From assembly GCA_947179485.1 (NCBI GenBank), contig OX359246.1, positions 47,781,632-47,845,631 of the forward strand: 64,000 bases of DNA, given 5' to 3'. The notes under the pieces were generated by a model. The model was not told where the DNA came from, did no database searches, and saw only the letters and a program-made list of their open reading frames with translations. Position 1 is the first letter of the stretch. Each line of letters starts with the position of its first letter. The DNA comes from Allacma fusca. Lineage: Eukaryota; Arthropoda; Collembola; Symphypleona; Sminthuridae. Made by a program: the position numbers and the translations under genes. Below are positions 11,341 through 55,900 of this stretch, piece by piece.

Positions 11341-14300
11341 ATGAGGACTAAAATCTCTGGAATTTTCCTCTTGGTCATTGTGGCCTTGTCTTCCTCACTT
11401 GCCTACGCAGGGGAGTCCATGGAATCCAATGATATCAACGAAGACGAACGAGAAAGTCGAACCCAAGACTATGACCCTTCCTTCTTGGACGAGATTCTTG
11501 GGCCGGACTATTTCGATGATATGAAAAAAACGGATACGAAGAAAGAAGCAGGCGAGAATAAAGACAGTGTTGAAACTGAGATTGTCACCGAAAAGGCTTT
11601 TTGTCTGGGGTGTGAGTCAAATGTGAATGTGGAGGATCCGAAAATCAAGGATATTGCTATGTTTGCATTCAACACTTATGCTTCAAATTCTGGCTCTGAC
11701 AAGGCCCAGACTTTTGTTAAGGTAACTAAAGCCAAGACACAAGTTGTGGCTGGATCTAAGTACACCTTGACAATTCTTGCTGGGTATTTAAATTGTTCGC
11801 AAGATGCGTATGTAACTACCCCGGGTGAGTGTGCTGCAGATTATGATAGAGACACCTTCCTTTGTGACTTTGTAATTTTGGAACAACCTTGGGCTAATAC
11901 GAAGAAAGTTTTGAGCTCTGTTTGCCACGAGAAAGATTTTGAGGATGTTACAGAAAGTGAAATGCTTCCAGAGGCGGTCTCTAGACGAAAGAGAGAAGTG
12001 GAAGTCACAACTGAGAACAATAATATTGGGAAATTGCGTGCAGCGGATGAGGACGATGAGTACCTGCGAGGAATGGCGAATTATGCTTTGGAGCAACTGG
12101 ACGAAATCGACGCGGACAATGAAGCGAGACTATTAGTAGATATGTTATCGGTGAAGAAGCAAACCGTATCCGGATGGTTGTACCATTTGAAGCTCCGAGT
12201 CGCTCAGACTACTTGTGAGGAAGGGAAAGGCAAAACTTTAAACGATTGTCGAACTAAGATTCAGCTACCTTTTGTCATCTGTAATGTCAAAGTGCTGGTC
12301 CAGCCTTGGCAGACTGTGACGAAAAAAGTCACGGAGAGTCAGTGCTTCCCAGAGAAGATGAAAGCTAGCAAGAAACTTACGAGGAAGTTGTTTCCGGAGG
12401 AAAAGGATTTTTACAGGAAGGATCACAAAAGCAAGAAAGAGATGAAAAAGTTGAGGGACAGTCTCGTCGGGGCACCAAAAATTGTGGAAAACAATTCTAC
12501 TGAAATTCAGAACTTGATGGATTGGGCCATTGAAACTGTGGATGCTCAGTCTAATGCTATGCATGCACAGAGGGTAGTGGAAGTTTTACATGCGGAACGG
12601 CAGGTACTAAGAAATCAAGGGGTTATTTAATGTATTGAAAATGCACAAATAGATTAATATTCAACTATAATTATAACTTATAACGGCTTTAATTTAAGTA
12701 TAAAATTGTATTTTTATTGATTGTGCCAACTCTTTATTTTTTGTATCTATTTTAGCTCGTAAATGGAATTTTGAACAAAATTACCTTTGAGACTGGTTAC
12801 ACCAATTGCAGAAAGAAAGCCGGGCTCGATCGGTCCAAGTGCGACTTGGATGACCAGAGGGTGAGTATTTGCACATTTTACATATGAGTAGAAAATAGTG
12901 ACAACAATTAACTGTCTGGTCTATATAGGAGCATAATTTCTGCGAGATGCATGTTTGGGTGAAGCCGTGGTTGCAGGAAAAGAAAGTCACTTATTCGAAG
13001 TGTGGCAAGCGTGAAGAGATCCTAAAGAGAAAGAAGAGGGTGAGTGGCCAAAATCATGTACTCATAATATATGAATATTAAATTGTGTTGCCAAAGTGGT
13101 GCTCAAATTATACCAGAAAATTCAAGGTGTGTGTGAAATTTGTAAATAACTTTCCTGTTGCTGTTTCTAGTCTCTTATTGGTGGGGATGACCATGACCAA
13201 AAAGGCTATGAGGTTGCAATGTTTGGAAAATTCCTAGATACCTTCAACAAAAAGTATGACAATCCCGAAGAGTACAAATATAGGCTTGGAGTATTCCGTG
13301 AGAATATGAAGAAGGTGAAATTGTTGCAAGAAAATGAGCAGGGAACTGCTACATATGGAGCAACCGTGTTTGCGGATTTGACTGGCAAGTGTTTGAGCTG
13401 CTAATCAAACGTTGTGGAAATGGATGCTTTGAAATCAGTTGTTAAACGATTTTTAATTTTAAGATTTTGTTTTTTGACTTTACAGAGGAGGAATTTTCCG
13501 AGCGCCATTTGGGTCTCAGGCCGGACCTTCGTCAAAAAGGAAAGATAAAGAAGGCGAAAATTCCACTATTACGAAAATTGCCTGTTGAATTTGATTGGAG
13601 AAATTACAGTGCTGTAACTCCCGTGAAAAATCAGGGCACTTGTGGATCATGCTGGGCCTTCTCCGTTACGGGCAATATTGAAGGTTTATACGCTCGGAAG
13701 TACCAAAATTTGGAAGAATTTTCGGAACAAGGTAAACATTTCTTGAGTCAGTAGCTGTGTTGGAACTATTAAAGTACTGCCGTATATGTCAAACCATAAT
13801 AATCATGTTTTAAAGTGAGCAGTTAAGTGTGAAGCAACGTGAATGTAGAGTATGGTAGATTAATGTTTTATGTTCATATTGTTTTATCGTACTACAGAGC
13901 TAGTGGATTGTGACACCTTAGATGAAGGTTGTGGAGGTGGCTTGCCAGAAAACGCATATAAAGCCATTCAAAAATTGGGAGGTTTAGAAACTGAATCTGC
14001 TTACCCATATGATGGACGTAATGAGAAGTGCCAGTTTAAGTCGGATCTTGCGAAAGCACAAGTCACTGGTTTTGTAGAAATTTCCAAAAACGAAACAGAA
14101 ATGGCGGCGTGGTTGGTGAAAAATGGTCCAATTTCAATTGGAATTAATGCCAATGCTATGCAGGTAAGAATTTTTTACAGGATTCATATGTTATTGTTTT
14201 TAATTAAAACATAAAAGTTAAACCGCTTTTGACATATATATTGTAGTTTTACTTCGGAGGTGTAAGCCACCCTTTTAAGTTCTTATGCAGCCCGAAGCAG

Positions 14301-14913
14301 CTTGATCATGGTGTCCTCGTTGTTGGTTATGGAGTTCACAGTAAGTATCTACTTGATCTTGATCACTGGATTAAATTGTCAATGCATCTTCTTAGAATAT
14401 GAACAGGGACTGTGTGTACACCAGTGTTCAACAAAAACATATTTATTTGTGTAGCAACCTCAATTAGACACAAGACTATGCCATATTGGCTAGTGAAAAA
14501 TAGCTGGGGACCACATTGGGGTGAACAGGTTAGTATCTAAACTTGTTTCTTTATTTGTAGATTATCCCATGTTTAATCGAACGTTGCCCTACTGGACCGT
14601 CAAAAATAGTTGGGGTACACGTTGGGGTGAACAGGTTGAGTTAATTTTTTTATTTCTTTTGGGTGCATGACTAATTCTGTGTGTACTGATTCTTTTGTTT
14701 TATGTATTGGATTTTGTATGCATAATAATATATATTTTCCCTTACTATTATTTTTAATGTATTAATCAGATGAGCCATTTTTTCGCACGTTCCACCTGTC
14801 GTTGATATAACTTGTACTATATGGTTTTGTTATATTAGGGATACTATCGTGTTTACCGTGGAGATGGAACCTGCGGAGTCAACCAAATGGCAACTTCGGC
14901 AGTTATTGCTTAA
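11341..14913 (+). CDS. Multicystatin cathepsin F-like cysteine protease
   Basis: Predicted secreted or lysosomal papain-family protease of 815 residues. Exons: 11341-12603, 12756-12860, 12929-13039, 13171-13384, 13486-13731, 13898-14163, 14247-14340, then either 14455-14528 or 14561-14634, then 14839-14913. Order: signal peptide (residues 1-23), acidic linker, three cystatin-like domains, inhibitory propeptide, mature enzyme. The cystatins show QVVAG, QTVSG and QVLVNG, each followed by a Pro-Trp hairpin (EQPW, VQPW, VKPW). The propeptide has an ERFNIN-like helix and FADLT. The mature part starts near LPVEFDWR; catalytic Cys about 620 (CGSCWAFS), His about 756 ([11 protein letters not shown]) and Asn about 782 (KNSWG). 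Cathepsin F with N-terminal cystatin is known in animals (Drosophila CG12163 type). Intron 4 uses a GC-AG pair. Confidence 0.9.
14455..14528 (+). other. Alternative catalytic exon 8a of the cathepsin F-like gene
   Basis: A 74-nt exon bounded by an acceptor ending GTAG and a GTTAGT donor. Entered in phase 1 and left in phase 0, it encodes a segment ending [16 protein letters not shown], with the catalytic Asn in KNSWG. It is paralogous to exon 8b at 14561-14634 and separated from it by 32 nt. Confidence 0.85.
14561..14634 (+). other. Alternative catalytic exon 8b of the cathepsin F-like gene
   Basis: A second 74-nt exon with the same phases as 8a (enter 1, leave 0), encoding a segment ending [16 protein letters not shown]. 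By eye 14 of 25 residues match exon 8a; the N-terminal third is quite different. Including both exons would shift the frame of the last exon, so they can only be used one at a time. Confidence 0.85.
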
Positions 14914-20668: not shown

Positions 20669-23600
20669 GGCAAATTCGACAAATTGCCTTAGGGCAAATT
20701 CGGCAAATTGCCTCAGGGCAAAATCGACAAATTGCCTCAGGGCAAATTCGAAAAATTGCCTTAGGGCAAATTCGACAAATTGCCTCAGGGCAAAATCGGC
20801 AAATTGCCTCAGGGCAAAATCGACAAATTGCCTCAGGGCAAATTCGAAAAATTGCCTTAGGGCAAATTCGACAAATTGCCTCAGGGCAAAATCGGCAAAT
20901 TGCCTCAGGGCAAAATCGACAAATTGCCTCAGGGCAAAATCGACAAATTGCCTCAGGGCAAAATCGACAAATTGCCTCAGGGCAAAATCGACAAATTGCC
21001 TCAGGGCAAAATCGACAAATTGCCTCAGGGCAAAATCGACAAATTGCCTCAGGGCAAAATCGACAAATTGCCTCAGGGCAAAATCGACAAATTGCCTCAG
21101 GGCAAATTCGACAAATTGCCTCAGGGCAAATTCGACAAATTGCCTCAGGGCAAATTCGACAAATTGCCTCAGGGCAAATTCGACAAATTGCCTCAGGGCA
21201 AATTCGACAAATTGCCTCAGGGCAAATTCGACAAATTGCCTCAGGGCAAAATCTACAAATTGCCTCAGGGCAAATTCGACAAATTGCCTCAGGGCAAAAT
21301 CTACAAATTGCCTCAGGGCAAATTCGACAAATTGCCTCAGGGCAAAATCGACAAATTGCCTCAGGGCAAAATCTACAAATTGCCTCAGGGCAAAATCGAC
21401 AAATTGCCTCAGGGCAAAATCTACAAATTGCCTCAGGGCAAAATCGACAAATTGCCTCAGGGCAAATTCGACAAATTGCCTCAGGGCAAATTCGACAAAT
21501 TGTCTCAGGGCAAATTCGACAAATTGCCTCAGGGCAAATTCGACAAATTACCTCAGGGCAAAATCGACAAATTGCCTCAGGGCAAATTCGACAAATTGCC
21601 TCAGGGCAAATTCGACAAATTGCCTCAGGGCAAATTCGACAAATTGCCTCAGGGCAAAATCGACAAATTGCCTCAGGGCAAAATCTACAAATTGCCTCAG
21701 GGCAAATTCGACAAATTGCCTCAGGGCAAAATCTACAAATTGCCTCAGGGCAAAATCGACAAATTGCCTCAGGGCAAAATCTACAAATTGCCTCAGGGCA
21801 AATTCGACAAATTGCCTCAGGGCAAAATCTACAAATTGCCTCAGGGCAAAATCTACAAATTGCCTCAGGGCAAAATCTACAAATTGCCTCAGGGCAAATT
21901 CGACAAATTGCCTCAGGGCAAATTCGACAAATTGCCTCAGGGCAAAATCGACAAATTGTCTCAGGGCAAATTCGACAAATTGCCTCAGGGCAAAATCGAC
22001 AAATTACCTCAGGGCAAAATCGACAAATTGCCTCAGGGCAAATTCGACAAATTGCCTCAGGGCAAAATCGACAAATTGCCTCAGGGCAAATTCGACAAAT
22101 TGCCTCAGGGCAAATTCGACAAATTGTCTCAGGGCAAATTCGACAAATTGCCTCAGGGCAAATTCGACAAATTACCTCAGGGCAAAATCGACAAATTGCC
22201 TCAGGGCAAATTCGACAAATTGCCTCAGGGCAAATTCGACAAATTGCCTCAGGGCAAATTCGACAAATTGCCTCAGGGCAAAATCGACAAATTGCCTCAG
22301 GGCAAAATCTACAAATTGCCTCAGGGCAAATTCGACAAATTGCCTCAGGGCAAAATCTACAAATTGCCTCAGGGCAAAATCGACAAATTGCCTCAGGGCA
22401 AATTCGACAAATTGCCTCAGGGCAAAATCTACAAATTGCCTCAGGGCAAATTCGACAAATTGCCTCAGGGCAAAATCTACAAATTGCCTCAGGGCAAAAT
22501 CTACAAATTGCCTCAGGGCAAATTCGACAAATTGCCTCAGGGCAAATTCGACAAATTGCCTCAGGGCAAAATCGACAAATTGTCTCAGGGCAAATTCGAC
22601 AAATTGCCTCAGGGCAAAATCGACAAATTACCTCAGGGCAAAATCGACAAATTGCCTCAGGGCAAATTCGACAAATTGCCTCAGGGCAAATTCGACAAAT
22701 TGCCTCAGGGCAAATTCGAAAAATTGCCTCAGGGCAAAATCGACAAATTGCCTCAGGGCAAATTCGACAAATTGTCTCAGGGCAAATTCGACAAATTGCC
22801 TCAGGGCAAAATCTACAAATTGCCTCAGGGCAAAATCGACAAATTGCCTCAGGGCAAAATCTACAAATTGCCTCAGGGCAAAATCGACAAATTGCCTCAG
22901 GGCAAATTCGACAAATTGCCTCAGGGCAAATTCGACAAATTGTCTCAGGGCAAATTCGACAAATTGCCTCAGGGCAAAATCGACAAATTACCTCAGGGCA
23001 AAATCGACAAATTGCCCCAGGGCAAATTCGACAAATTGCCTCAGGGCAAATTCGACAAATTGCCTCAGGGCAAATTCGACAAATTGCCTCAGGGCAAAAT
23101 CTACAAATTGCCTCAGGGCAAAATCTACAAATTGCCTCAGGGCAAAATCTACAAATTGCCTCAGGGCAAAATCTACAAATTGCCTCAGGGCAAAATCTAC
23201 AAATTGCCTCAGGGCAAAATCTACAAATTGCCTCAGGGCAAAATCTACAAATTGCCTCAGGGCAAATTCTACAAATTGCCTCAGGGCAAAATCGACAAAT
23301 TGCCTCAGGGCAAAATCTACAAATTGCCTCAGGGCAAAATCTACAAATTGCCTCAGGGCAAAATCGACAAATTGCCTCAGGGCAAAATCTACAAATTGCC
23401 TCAGGGCAAAATCGACAAATTGCCTCAGGGCAAAATCTACAAATTGCCTCAGGGCAAAATCTACAAATTGCCTCAGGGCAAAATCGACAAATTGCCTCAG
23501 GGCAAAATCGACAAATTGCCTCAGGGCAAAATCGACAAATTGCCTCAGGGCAAAATCGACAAATTGCCTCAGGGCAAAATCGACAAATTGCCTCAGGGCA

Positions 23601-24036
23601 AAATCTACAAATTGCCTCAGGGCAAAATCTACAAATTGCCTCAGGGCAAAATCGACAAATTGCCTCAGGGCAAATTCGACAAATTGCCTCAGGGCAAAAT
23701 CGACAAATTGCCTCAGGGCAAAATCTACAAATTGCCTCAGGGCATAATCGACAAATTGCCTCAGGGCAAAATCGACAAATTGCCTCAGGGCAAAATCTAC
23801 AAATTGCCTCAGGGCAAAATCGACAAATTGCCTCAGGGCAAAATCTACAAATTGCCTCAGGGCAAAATCTACAAATTGCCTCAGGGCAAATTCGACAAAT
23901 TGCCTCAGGGCAAAATCGACAAATTGCCTCAGGGCAAAATCTACAAATTGCCTCAGGGCAAATTCGACAAATTGCCTGAAGGCAAATTCGACAAATTGCC
24001 TGAAGGCAAATTCGACAAATTGCTTCAGGGCAAATT
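20669..24036. repeat. 24-bp satellite array, about 140 copies
   Basis: Tandem repeat with invariant core caaattgcctcagggcaaa followed by five variable bases, giving three main unit types (atcga, ttcga and atcta endings). Units are highly uniform in the middle; those at both edges are more diverged (ccttag on the left, cctgaag and cttcag on the right), as expected for unequal exchange. Each unit has a small TTGCC/GGCAA inverted repeat. The unit is a multiple of three without stops on the + strand, so all three + frames are open for more than 1,000 codons. No promoter, splice site or composition suggests a real protein. Confidence 0.97.
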
Positions 24037-28206: not shown

Positions 28207-29001
28207 TCATGGATTTGTAACCGTAGAACATTTGGCAATACCAGGGGGAAGGCACGTCTTCGTATTTTTGTCAAAATTAGTGCCAGCAGGGCATGCCATA
28301 TGAGTTGCAGATTTATCGTAGCACCAATAGAACTTTGTACAGTCAAGTTTATCTGGTTGCAGCCCATCAGAAGGGCATTGAATACCTGCAAAGAACCCAA
28401 TAGTTGATAATTATGAGCAAACCAAATGAAGATTAAATAGAATGATGTACAGGTTGTTGTTCGTAACGTAACAACCACTATTTAAAAAAAAGCAATCTTG
28501 AATAATACTTAACGCTTCTCATTGAAAGTATACCTTGTAATATATTATCAATAAGGCAAGTAGCAACTTGTTTTTTGGGGCAGCAATAGCCTTTCGTTAT
28601 GTCAAATGCATACCCGGGTAAACATTGCAAACGATATGGAGTAGAGTCAATACATATGTAAAAATATTCGCAATCCAGTGGATCCTGGTAGACGACATTA
28701 GGTACCGGGCATCTAAATTCTGTAGGTAAAGACGTAGGCACCGATGTAGGCAAAGTTGTTGGCACTGGTTGCGGCAAATCCTTTGGACTATATGGAGAAC
28801 ATAAATTGGCTCTTGCTTCCTTCGTCAGAAACTTGTCCTGCCAGAATAACCACAAATACAATGGTTTATAAAATGCGTTCAACATTTAACTGAAACTAAT
28901 GTAAACTTACTTATTACTTTTTGCGCCAAATTGGTTCCAGTTGGAGCAGAAATGACTAGCAAGAGAAAAGTACGACAGCTGCAGTTAAGATTCCCTACCA
29001 T
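28207..29001 (-). CDS. Secreted protein with two peritrophin-A (ChtBD2) domains
   Basis: Predicted 188-residue secreted chitin-binding protein. Exons, 5' to 3' on the minus strand: 29001-28918, 28837-28534, 28385-28207 (567 nt). Exon 1 encodes a signal peptide (MVGNLNCSCRTFLLLVIS...). Exon 2 has a Pro/Thr-rich linker with PTTLPTSVPTSLPT, then the first six-cysteine domain (FRCPVPN through the Cys of VATC). Exon 3 has the second domain (IQCPSDGL through AKC) and a short tail. Cysteine spacing and the aromatic YFYIC / FYWCY cores fit ChtBD2/peritrophin-A, which binds chitin in gut lining or cuticle. Phases are 0 and 1, with GT-AG junctions. Confidence 0.85.
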
Positions 29002-43732: not shown

Positions 43733-46700
43733 TTATTTTGCAAAATTTTCTAGTGGTTTTTTATTCGTTTCTCCTAGTAAGAAAGTTGAGCATGCAGTTA
43801 TTAGGCTAAGGCCGGCGAAGACGAAGTAGGGAGCACATGGGAAAACTAGTTAGTAGACAGAACAAATAACATGTTAACATACACAAATACGCTTCATGAA
43901 TAATTTGTGCTCCAAATATAAGTAAACTGTACAAAATTACGAGTCTTACGTGATCCTAAGTAAGCAAGTTGAGGTGCAATGATTCCTCCAAAATTGGCTG
44001 CAAGAGCACAAAGTCCCAATGCAGTGGATCTACAAGTTGTGGGGAAAGATTCAACAGTGAAACATGTCAAAACTCCCCAAGCCCCACACACTCCGAACCT
44101 TCCCATGTACGAAAATATAGATAGCAAAAGCCCGTATTTGTCATGACCACCGACTGTGTCAACTACAACCAGGGCAACCAAGAAAATAGAAGCAAAGATA
44201 CAATATCCGCTGTAAGTTTTCCTTCGTCCCAACCTGTCATTTATTATTCAATACAGGACATTCAAATTATTGTTGGAAATGTGTCAGTTATTTGTTTCTC
44301 CTAAATTATAGGAAGGCCAATTATATTAAAATATGCTTACCAATTGTTGAATAAAATTCCTGAAAAAAAGGCTGGAAAATCCACCAGACCCATGTAGAGT
44401 ACATTGAGGTAAGGATTGCCATTAACATTCTTTGTGTTGAAACTCATGCTGTAATAGACTATCGATGCCGAAAACCAACCGAACAGAAATACAAGCATTT
44501 TATAACGAAGATTTGAGTTTGTAAATATCTCCCATGAACTCACGCCAGGCTTGCTCTGATCTGTTCTTTCGTTTAGGATGGATTTCTGTAAATTATCTAC
44601 TACTGCAGAATCCAAAAGGGGCTTTCTATTCATTCGTGCAATTTTGTTCAGACTTTTTTGGGCTTCTGCAGTTCGCTGTTGACATAAGAGCCATCTGGGA
44701 GTTTCAGGGACGAATCTAACATTTTTTGAAAAATTACATATGTTTTTAAATTCTTTAATATATGAGTAATTGTTGTTTGAAGGAAAATTAGTGACAACTT
44801 ACGGGTAAAAGCATAAAAACACTAGAGCCATTAAGGAAGGAATACAAGTCAGGTATCGCCATGATGGAATTAGGTAGGCCATCAAAGCTAAAATCATAAT
44901 ACCCAGACTCCAAACACTAACGCATCCTACCAAGGTTCTCCATTTTGGAGTTAAGAACTCCATCAGGTAAATGTAGTATGTACCGTAGAACCCTATATTA
45001 AATAATTTGATGGTTAACGTTTGCTTGCGTAAGTTCTGGATCAAAATACTGTTATGCAGGTATGTATTACTCTTGGGCAACATTTTGAGACATGCAAAAT
45101 GATGACTTTATCAACAACGATGTAAGTTGCAGTTTACCCTAATTGTAAGTCAAATTTCTGACGTGTTTATGTATTTGATCTATAATCAATATTACGCACA
45201 TTTAGTAATAGTTTTTCCAAACAATTCCCTCCCTTCACTTGTTTTGTAGTTACCGTCTTTTTCATCGTCTTTTGGTTATCTTTTCTTACCTACGTAAAAG
45301 GGATAAAATGTTTATTCAGAAGCATAATATTGCAAATGGTCGTATACATAAACTCTACACTGTCACTCTCTCTCTCCCTAACATGACTCTTCCCCTCTCT
45401 GGTGACATTTCAGGTGCAACACCTGCAACAACGTCACACGTGCATAGATCCTCCTTAAAGTATTTACGTTTCATTCAAACGACACCCCGTATAACCACAC
45501 TTCTCTTATAACATCATAAATATTTTCCCTCCGTCTATATTGATTTTATATTTTGTATAACGTGAGCGAAATATTTGAGTAATATTTCTACAAAAATTCA
45601 AACATATTGAACTAATATTTCAAATTTTTTGTTCTCACCTTTTTGGTCTTTAATAACCACTGATACCTATCAACTACCCCAAATTTGCTTTTTGACAATA
45701 AATCTAGATCCTTGGACATTAATTCTGGAATTTGAATGTTTTTAGGATATATAAAAACCTTACCTCCAAGACCAAGTCCAGCTAGAAATCGACTCACAGC
45801 AAACGAATATATTTCTGTTACGATTCCTGATGTAAAACCAAAGATACCCATGAGAGCCACACTGGCGTAATAAGCAGTCCTTCTGCCATAAGCATCGGCG
45901 ACCTGAGATCCTGTCAGGGCACCTGTCGTCATGCCCGCCATCTGAATGCTGGTGAAGAAGTCCGGTAACCAGGCTTTCTCACAAACTAGTTCCCACTTAG
46001 AGAATCCAACACGATATATGTATGTATGTAAGCACTGATCTACATTATACTTGGAGATGAAATGCTAAAATCACATAATTGACTCTACTTTACCTCTTGA
46101 ACAATGGAAACAACTGGCTTTGAAGAATTCAAAACCAACGTACAATTCCGACTACAAATCTTAACATCTTGTGCTGAGATCGTGTCGAAATTTGAATTGT
46201 TTCGCAAGCAATTAAATTCAACGTTGCTTGTCCCAGTAAAAATCATCGTGAGAGCAATGGCGGCGCAGGGAATCTCTACCATGACAAGTACGATCGTTAT
46301 GCAGAATTGGAAACGGGAAAAACCTCCTAAAGTAAGATTTATGACGACTATTACGACGATGCCCAATATGTCCTAATATGTTTAAAAACTAGAATTTTAT
46401 TACAGTAAGAACTTTACCCAATTTTTCCAAAACATCCTCCATCGTAAGCTTATCTTCAAATTCAGGGGTTTCGGCTCCCATATTGTCAAAGGTACGGTAG
46501 CCTTTTGTGTTACTATGAGTCTGATATGACAAAGGCTCTTTACCATTGAGGTGTTCGGCTTTTCTGAAAAACTGAATGCGAAAGACTATCTCTAGTAATT
46601 TATTTAATAAATTGATATTAAATTATGGTCGCATCTGTTCCATTGTTTTTAAAGTATCTAATGACCTTGTAAGAATTTACTGCGTGTTGTGGCACATTAC

Positions 46701-50206: not shown

Positions 50207-51431
50207 TAACGAGTTTAGTAAAAAAATTAAACGAATGCAATAAATGAGCATTGGAAATGACCATGGCGACTTATGTAAGTTTCAAATCGAGCTACCCACT
50301 CGAGTTATCCAGCCCGACGACCTATAGCGAGTGAAACGTTCCCAGCTTACCTTTAAATGTCGTGATGTTTCCCACTGCAATCTGTATGACGCTTCTCCTG
50401 CAAGAAACGAATTGCAGTGTTCCAATCTCCTCCCATCTTTTGTACTTCCCCTTCCACCCCTCAATTATGTGCAATTAGAGACTTGTCCCACATCTCCGAG
50501 TCGGGGTTCCTCAGCGCCGGGATATCTATTCTACCAAATTTTACAGCTCATATACAGGGGTGCCAATGTGACTCTGAAGGCCCCTTCGGGGCCATCATAG
50601 TCACGTCACCCCTTTCCAGCTCTAAACTAACCTAACCTGAACGTCCGAAACGACGGGTTAGGTTTTCAATCTGGTATGCCCTCCTCATAATTACATCGCT
50701 TCACTTATCGAATTTGCAAAACTGGGACACTTATCGTAATTCGGAACCTGGGACAGTTATCGTAATTCGGGGACAGTTATCGTAAACCGGAACTTGGGAC
50801 AGTTATCGTAAACCGGAACTTGGGACAGTTATCGTAAACCGGAACTTGGGACAGTTATCGTAAACCGGAACTTGGGACAGTTATCGTAAACCGGAACATT
50901 CGACTTTTGGGACAGTTATCGTAGTTGCCCCAAAAATCAATCACTGGAAAACCACGTGGTTCGAAAGACCTCATTTGCCTTACTTACCGGTGAACTGATT
51001 TAAAAAAAAAAATTTAAAGGGTTTAAACAAATTCCGTAACAACTAACGTTTAATGGAAAGACGCACACTTAGTGTTGCGACTTACTTTTTCCAGTAAATG
51101 AGCACGCTGATTTACAGTTTGAATAGTCGCATACAGGGGGCAACGCACTATCTCCAGTTCGCACTTTGTGTTTCACCCACCAGAACACAGAGGGATATGT
51201 TAATTAACATCGGGAACCAGGTAGAAGGACCTTCCATCTGGTCAAATTAAGGTGAATATTGTAAACTTTTGGTGGAATGTCAAGTGGAAGGTCAAATGGA
51301 AGGTATAGTGGAAGGTGGAAATCCTGGTGGAAGGTGGAAGGTAATTTTTTGGCTGGGAAAGTAGAACTCAACCGACAATTCTTGAAATAGGAATGGTAGA
51401 AATTGATAGTACGAGTGCCACAAAGTTTATA
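50207..51431. other. Repeat-bearing intergenic DNA
   Basis: No gene recognised. It holds the 26-bp tandem repeat at 50722-50933 and, at about 51230-51350, a run of tggaaggt words resembling the word-filled ends of the hAT elements, but no matching termini or target duplication could be found. Confidence 0.45.
50722..50933. repeat. 26-bp tandem repeat, about eight units
   Basis: Units of gggacagttatcgtaaaccg plus six bases, at exact 26-bp spacing in the centre (50795, 50821, 50847, 50873). Edge units are shorter or diverged. The right edge ends at gttatcgtagttgcccc. It may be the inside of a small element. Confidence 0.9.
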
Positions 51432-52972: not shown

Positions 52973-55900
52973 TCATACTCGTGTGCTTGAAACCTTTGAC
53001 GATGCAAAATTTGCAAGAGGTTTTTTATTCGTTTCTGATAGCAGATAGGTGGAACACGCTGCTGCAAATGCCAGGCCTGCGAAGATGAAGAATGGGGCTG
53101 ATGGAGAAACTGTGTCGGTAAACAGAAAATAAAAGTGTGAATGTCCTTGAAGTTCTAGGCGACACATTGAATCGAAGAGATTAGCACTATATTTTCAAAA
53201 CAATTAATACCTGAACCCAAATAGGCCATCTGAGGTGCAATAACTCCTCCCAAATTATCTGCCAGGGTACAAATTCCCATAGCAGTTGAGCGGCACGTTG
53301 TAGGGAAGGACTCGGCAGTAAAACAAGTTACAACCCCCCAAGCACCTGCGACTCCAAACCTTCCAAGGTACGACAAAACAGAAATAACCTCCTCATGTCC
53401 ATTGCGTCCGATGATCTGGTCAACGATAAGAAGTGTCAAGAGGACTATAGAAGCGAAGATTAAATAACCCGCATAAGTTTTTCGTCGTCCAAGCCTATAA
53501 AGTAAAACACATTTGAACAATGTATTAATATTTAAAAAGCTTGCAGAAAATCAATACAATGGTGTTATGACTTATCTGTTAGCTAACCAGTTATTGAATA
53601 AAACGCCTGAAGGGAATGCGGCCAAATCAACCAGCCCCATGTAAAGCACATTGAGGTAAGGATTCCCACTAAGATTCTTTGTATTGAAACTCATGCTATA
53701 GTACACAAATGACACCGTGTACCATCCAAAGGCAAATAAAACTATTCTAGAACGAAGCTCGGCATTTTTATAAATCTCCCATGAGCATCCGCTGGACTTG
53801 CTCTCGCTAGTACGCTCCTTGAGGACGGACTTCTGTAAAGCTTCCACAACTGCTGTCTCCAGTGGTGGTTTCCCATTCATTTTTGCTATAAAATTTAAAC
53901 TTTCCTCTGCTTCTGCAGTTCGTTCTTTACACAATAGCCATCTGGGAGTTTCTGGGACGAATCTGCAATTTTTTGTAGATAAATTGTGAATTAAACTAAC
54001 GGTCTAATATTAAATATCAAGTAATTTAAAAATTAATGATTCGTATTAACTATAAATTACGGGTAAAAGAATAGAACAAATATGCATATTGTGCAAGGAG
54101 CACAAGTCAAATATCGCCATGAGGGAATTAAGTAGGCTAATAAGGCCAAGAGCATGATACCCACACTCCAAATAGTAATGCATCCGGAAATGGTCCGCCA
54201 TTTAGGTGTTAGAAATTCCATAAGGTAAATAAAGTACACCACATAAAATCCTATAGAAGTCAAACAAGAAAAATAAATTTAGTTCCAGTCAGAAATATTT
54301 AATCTTTCGCTATTATTTGTATTAACTTTGCTTATATTTCTACACATAAGTGCATGTTTATCGAAATTATTTCAGAGCTAAAAACAGTCTGCACATCAAA
54401 ACATCTGCAGAACCACAATACAAGTAACTACATATCTATGCATGTGTAGAAATTTTAAATCCCACCTGGTCAGGGTATGGCTGGTGGCTACACGAGATTA
54501 ATGTTTTTTAAATTGTTTAAAAAAAGGCGAGCGTTTAATTTAGCGTTTAGCTAGCATAACATTAGATATTACTTATTTCAGGCTGGCCTTGGGACAATTT
54601 CAGTATTAGTGGATCGGTAAACAAGATAATTAAAATTATCTTGAATATAACAAGCTACTGTTCTCATTGATACCACTGTTTCATACATTTAATAACAAAT
54701 ATCTATTTATCGTCGGATGGGTGTGTTTGTGGCTTGTGGTACTTCCTCAATTTATTTGTATTGCAGTTTACTTGCATTTGTGCATCGTGCTGATATTATT
54801 TTAAATAGATAATTACTTGCTTGCAAAATATACCAATAGTATAATGGTGGCTGCACCAAAGTTGATTTGTCAGCGCATTTATTTTTTATAATTAGAATTG
54901 GTCTAGCTTTACTGGCTTCTCTGATGAAACCATTAGACGTATGCAACATGTATCGAGTACTTCCTATAGAGCTCAACACGTGCATGACACAGTGAATGCA
55001 TCTATTACATGCAAAAACAATATTACGTACCTCCTAATCCAATTCCGGCTAGGAAACGACTCACCCCAAATAGATAAATGCTATTGACGGATCCAGAAAT
55101 CATGCCAAAGATGCCCATAATTGCCACATTCGCATAGAACACGGTCTTCCTTCCATATGCATCAGCAACCTGAGAGGCTGTCATTGCCCCGGTCATCATA
55201 CCCATCATTTGAATACTGGTAAAGAAGTCAGGTAGCCATGCTCGGTCACATACTAATTCCCACTAGATTATTATTTCCAAATTCCAAAATTGAATCAAAT
55301 GTTTTTGTACCAGTGATGGGTAACGCTATTGATACAGTTATGTCTTCCTCATAATAAGAAATAATAGTATAGATAGTCACCGCAATCCGAAATGCGGGTT
55401 GTAAAACTACGTACATATACTATATTAAAAGTTATATTGCTTTGCCACTACTAATAATTTATTATTAACGCCAAATGAAATACAACCCATACTATTCATG
55501 AACCTACATATTTTCTACAGTTTTATGAAAAGCACTCTGTAATCGCACGCCTCAAAACAACAACGGTAAGAATACACAGGATAAGCAAAACCATGAATAA
55601 TAATAAATTATTATTATTATTATTGACAAATTCATGAGCATCTCTACATCGTTCAGCGTCAAAGTTTTAATCTGCGTTTATAAAGCCTTTCTGAAGTACT
55701 AAAAGAAGTTTTTAAATAATTGATGAAAATTATTAAACGAGAGAAGTTCTTATAGTCCTCAAAGAATTATCGTTATATTTACATTTAAAGATTCTCTAGA
55801 GTCAACAGTCGTATTTGTGGTGCGGTTGATATATAGGAGCGTATATGTAATTATATCATAAAACCTAATCGCATACCGCACCTCTTGATAAAATGACTTA

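Follow-up and report, generated by a model that had tools for sequence, protein, structure and literature searches.

A tandem, probably mutually exclusive exon pair encoding the catalytic-asparagine segment of a cathepsin F gene in the springtail Allacma fusca

The window analyzed here, the whole stretch of 64,000 nucleotides from Allacma fusca, carries on its forward strand a protease gene running from position 11341 to a stop codon at 14913 (Table 1), for which the gene model gives nine coding segments in each of two forms. The forms contain either alternative exon 8A or alternative exon 8B (hereafter A and B), and both yield a complete protein of 815 amino acids. The Pfam search placed cystatin domains in three stretches (the best at residues 90 to 184), Inhibitor_I29 at residues 511 to 568, and Peptidase_C1 at residues 596 to 812, and the motifs of the catalytic residues, CGSCWAF, LDHGV, and KNSWG, are all found in the gene product. 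The closest solved structure is human cathepsin F, 1m6d (E value of 1e-82 and 280.3 bits for form B, with the runner-up at 194.1). Judged from these features, i.e., a C1 domain with its Cys, His, and Asn residues, a cystatin-bearing proregion, and an I29 propeptide, the gene is a cathepsin F of the C1A cysteine peptidases. Its intron 13385-13485 is of the GC-AG type, which is required for the reading FADLTEEEFS. Two basic stretches noticed by eye, RRKR after residue 210 and, further downstream, KRKKR (12929-13171), located past the cystatin part and ahead of the I29 propeptide, are possible proprotein-processing sites.

Table 1. Coding segments of the cathepsin F gene and the gap between its alternative exons (positions in the window)
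Feature	Position	Strand	Basis
Coding exon 1, signal-peptide-like start and cystatin domains	11341-12603	+	Open frame, gene model, Pfam; signal peptide by eye
Coding exon 2	12756-12860	+	Gene model, AG/GT, phase 0/0
Coding exon 3	12929-13039	+	Gene model, phase 0/0
Coding exon 4, I29 propeptide, GC donor	13171-13384	+	Gene model; Inhibitor_I29
Coding exon 5, start of C1 domain, catalytic Cys (CGSCWAF)	13486-13731	+	Gene model; Peptidase_C1
Coding exon 6, C1 domain	13898-14163	+	Gene model
Coding exon 7, catalytic His (LDHGV), exit phase 1	14247-14340	+	Gene model; 1m6d alignment
Alternative exon 8A, Asn segment, PHWGEQ; catalytic Asn codon 14499-14501	14455-14528	+	
32-nt gap, donor of A and acceptor of B; best branch-site candidate A at 14540	14529-14560	+	
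Alternative exon 8B, Asn segment, TRWGEQ; catalytic Asn codon 14605-14607; N-R-T sequon 14575-14583	14561-14634	+	
Last coding exon, ends in TAA	14839-14913	+	Gene model

Elsewhere in the window, a long minisatellite occupies 20669-24034, with a 24-nt unit, GGCAAAATCGACAAATTGCCTCAG, repeated in about 140 copies with 95% matches; several of its frames are open on each strand, so that it mimics long open reading frames (ORFs). A shorter array, with 7 copies of a 26-nt unit in tandem, lies at 50723-50897. The reverse strand holds two similar tandem transporter genes (43894-46064 and 53155-54003), of whose four ORFs the two that were scanned match Pfam Sugar_tr, and an ORF with a chitin-binding Peritrophin-A domain (CBM_14) at 28478-28885.

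Direct reading of the cathepsin F gene places A and B in tandem (14455-14528 and 14561-14634), each of them 74 nt long, flanked by AG and GT, entered in phase 1, left in phase 0, and bearing KNSWG, between a coding exon at 14247-14340 and another at 14839-14913, which is the arrangement given in the original prediction. Inclusion of both exons had been expected to shift the last exon, and the joined frame bears this out: with A spliced to B, the frame shifts and stays open to the end of the last coding exon. Skipping both exons shifts the frame as well, and the two outcomes have one cause, since each exon measures 74 nt. If the gap is retained, the length comes back in frame (180 nt), but a TAA follows after three gap codons, with the stop at codon 795. 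A complete C1 domain results only when one of the two exons, and not the other, is included.

The two exons are identical at 46 of 74 nt and at 14 of 25 residues. When A was compared with every AG-74nt-GT stretch of the window, 351 over the two strands, the best match was B, with a BLOSUM62 score of 91 and the next stretch scoring 7, which rules out a chance resemblance. A third copy of the exon in the window was also rejected, as the best score of a six-frame scan after A and B was 27, versus 148 to 149 for the exons themselves. A and B are therefore adjoining homologues of equal length and phase whose combined inclusion or skipping is unproductive, features expected of tandem duplicated mutually exclusive exons. 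The gap might be a shrunken copy of the upstream intron (14341-14454): its opening 24 nt look like the beginning of that intron, a likeness equalled in 4 of 500 shuffles, and its closing 24 nt look like the end, equalled in 12 of 500. Unrelated introns, though, match one end just as closely (the start of 12861-12928, 3 of 500; the end of 12604-12755, 3 of 500).

Pairwise counts between A and B on 75 nt (25 codons) gave a pS of 0.84 and a pN of 0.26. In the core (codons 11 to 25), pS was 0.64 and pN 0.11, and A and B share 12 of its 15 residues; for the loop (codons 1 to 8), pN was 0.58 and pS 1.17, a value above 1 that betrays too few sites and unsteady substitution counts. This comparison, made within one genome, points to purifying selection on both copies. 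Because synonymous sites are near saturation yet the protein is constrained, an old duplication with both copies kept in use by selection would be the simplest account. The mature forms also fit the family about equally well, with Peptidase_C1 scores in Pfam of 245.6 bits for A and 246.6 bits for B, and human cathepsin F 1m6d scores of 278.3 and 280.3 bits, respectively.

These data also bear on a different account, in which one exon alone is in use and the other, although it still looks intact, is a relic that was abandoned recently or is seldom used. Simulated neutral drift of one copy leaves some room for it, since 107 of 5,000 copies were still stop-free with such core identity after one branch had drifted by 0.25 substitutions per site; at 0.5, 0.75, and 1.0 substitutions per site, none of 5,000 was intact at each level. 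Against it stand the near-saturated synonymous sites beside a conserved core, the splice sites and phase, which are intact on both copies, and the equal fit of both forms to the C1 family, so that we consider a relic unlikely. Altogether, the locus is very probably a tandemly duplicated, mutually exclusive exon pair through which one cathepsin F gene would make two proteases by steric exclusion. The expectation of two proteases from one gene thus holds at the level of sequence, with one-exon-only frames that complete the C1 domain, selection on both exons, and an equal C1 fit.

The splicing signals are consistent with such an exclusion. The other eight introns of the cathepsin F gene measure 68 to 204 nt, versus 32 nt for the gap, and a cathepsin L-like paralogue in the same genome has three introns of 86, 93, and 103 nt (by eye). 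By branch-site weights of our own, not calibrated on springtails, the best candidate in the gap is CTAAA, with its A at position 12 (14540), 20 nt before the acceptor of B. In human exon pairs, steric exclusion is counted below 50 nt, with 57 cases representing 9% of clusters, and 60% of exon clusters have lengths not divisible by three, according to the available portion of PMC5740500. Here, the whole gap spans 32 nt and the predicted candidate stands at 12, far below the human limit of about 50 nt between upstream donor and branch point (PMC5740500 and PMC7969005), which supports the earlier view that a 32-nt intron is probably too short to splice. With the same weights, the best candidate of intron 14164-14246 lies 40 nt from its donor; therefore, the 50-nt limit may not apply exactly in this gene.

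We propose that the spliceosome would join exon 7 to either A or B and then A or B to the last exon. In a gap of 32 nt, the branch site of B would sit about 12 nt from the donor of A, so that U1 on this donor and U2 on this branch site would exclude each other and bar the joining of A to B; joining both exons or keeping the gap would in any case lose or stop the frame. On this basis, the exclusion is likely to work sterically, between the 5' splice site and a predicted branch point, in the manner of alpha-tropomyosin. The choice between the exons could be set by the balance of their splice-site strengths. The donor of A matches U1 at 8 of 9 positions (-7.7 kcal/mol) and that of B at 5 of 9 (-6.7 kcal/mol); the acceptor of A has 10 pyrimidines in 20 positions, the lowest of nine acceptors, and that of B has 14 in 20. 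A better donor with a poorer acceptor in A, and the reverse in B, suits an alternative choice, a balance that is no proof of regulation. Exclusion by competing RNA structures was rejected, as the longest docking/selector pairings between introns, searched in this one sequence, stayed within shuffled controls. No Rfam element matched in the window at gathering scores.

The same gap could be read otherwise, as a regulated unproductive switch in which A-B joining or gap retention in some transcripts leads to nonsense-mediated decay (NMD) and lowers cathepsin F output. Donor and acceptor signals are present at the gap ends, and both products would lose the frame or meet a stop, like poison events. 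However, the gap is only 32 nt, with its best branch candidate at 12 nt, and a poison exon would have no need of the protein-level selection seen in both exons, which makes such a switch very improbable.

The C1 family was also searched in the genome (392,743,791 bases in 91 contigs), giving at least 29 matches grouped into at least 10 places, and the stretches of all 10 (three present twice) were scanned. Two Asn segments occur at the gene in the window only; each of the other nine loci carries one. A protein search of the same genome found, as the next gene most like cathepsin F among the matches listed, one that is 42% identical over residues 2 to 208, so no second cathepsin F gene was seen in the own-genome searches among the matches listed. 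The family search, the locus scan, and the protein search together led us to reject a donor paralogue elsewhere in the genome, among the matches listed. This protein search, run with form B, reported exon B and not exon A; such searches can therefore overlook a second exon, and a direct scan of the locus is the better control. An assembly error or a collapsed paralogue is hardly credible, as the exons lie 32 nt apart and, with 46 of 74 nt identical, are too divergent to be haplotypes, no second cathepsin F gene stands among the matches listed, and the paper on the published assembly, in its available part, describes the removal of haplotypic duplications (PMC10427803). Relatives were sought in viral contigs, where none was found, and in genome contigs, where 17 stretches fit a pattern and none was confirmed; neither collection gave an orthologue.

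Returning to the mutually exclusive pair, the two predicted enzymes keep the Cys-His-Asn machinery and, within the exon, share the catalytic Asn together with NSWG, PYW, and the WGEQ end. Most of the nine residues that follow the split codon are exchanged, so that the loop before PYW differs, as do one residue (L or T) of the strand before KNSWG and the two residues after NSWG (PH in A, TR in B). An N-glycosylation sequon, N-x-T, is present in B alone. The original prediction of two proteases differing around the active-site Asn was supported, with a shift of emphasis: PH/TR and the loop before PYW do differ, but the Asn and its setting from KNSWG to WGEQ are unchanged, and the difference lies mostly in the loop. 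In papain-type structures generally, the loop leading into this strand forms a hairpin on the surface, away from the cleft, and the residues after NSWG lie near the conserved Trp shielding the Asn-His pair. Because of this position of the loop, a change in glycosylation, stability, or partner contacts would be likelier than a catalytic one. The two forms probably differ in stability, glycosylation, sorting, or contacts with substrates or inhibitors rather than in basic catalysis, and an altered catalysis between them is possible.

The loop is six residues longer in both springtail forms than in 1m6d, which reads QRSD; at this site of the 1m6d chain, we take the native human cathepsin F residue to be Asn, a glycosylation site. 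A more tentative idea, which we find possible and rather less than probable, is that the exon pair might switch splicing between glycosylated and nonglycosylated forms of one protease, lysosomal or secreted, which would change its sorting, its stability, or its contacts with inhibitors or substrates without a second gene. If this were true, a papain-family protease would have been diversified by alternative active-site-bearing exons and not by gene duplication.

Arthropod cathepsins usually diversify through whole-gene copies. Here, one gene apparently retains two old versions of the segment with the catalytic residue inside one protease domain. If this holds true in RNA, it would provide a natural isoform pair with up to 11 differing positions in one exon, and these isoforms could show how a papain-type enzyme is tuned by the loop, by a glycan, and by the neighbors of its active-site Asn; moreover, the 32-nt gap would be an extreme case of steric exclusion between exons. 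In the open-licence literature, we found no description of such exons in cathepsin F or in any cathepsin, in agreement with the earlier statement that no described case was known in cathepsin F. The available portions of PMC8956072, PMC12758981, and PMC4727968 likewise hold no description of such exons in a cathepsin, and the words protease, peptidase, and cathepsin are absent from the main text of PMC9741552.

Tandem mutually exclusive exons are well known, and what is unusual here is their location in a papain-family protease. Human cathepsin F (1m6d) is of the same cystatin, I29, and C1 type as the springtail protein, which is set apart from it by the exon duplication. With the exon pairs of alpha-tropomyosin, actinin, and OGDH, the springtail pair shares tandem homologous exons, a short gap, and a branch site near the upstream donor, as far as the accessible text of PMC7969005 goes; these genes, however, encode other proteins than cathepsin F. 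In the same source, the branch points of human OGDH lie 25 to 41 nt from the donor, whereas the whole gap here is 32 nt and its branch site is a predicted one. Among human substitutions of tandem duplicated exons, the portion available from PMC9741552 reports that the catalytic Arg108 of KHK is present in both copies and that 80.6% of binding residues are kept. Functional residues are thus conserved across the copies in the KHK and ACOX1 events, as the catalytic Asn is in forms A and B of the springtail cathepsin F, with the difference that the springtail case concerns a cysteine protease.
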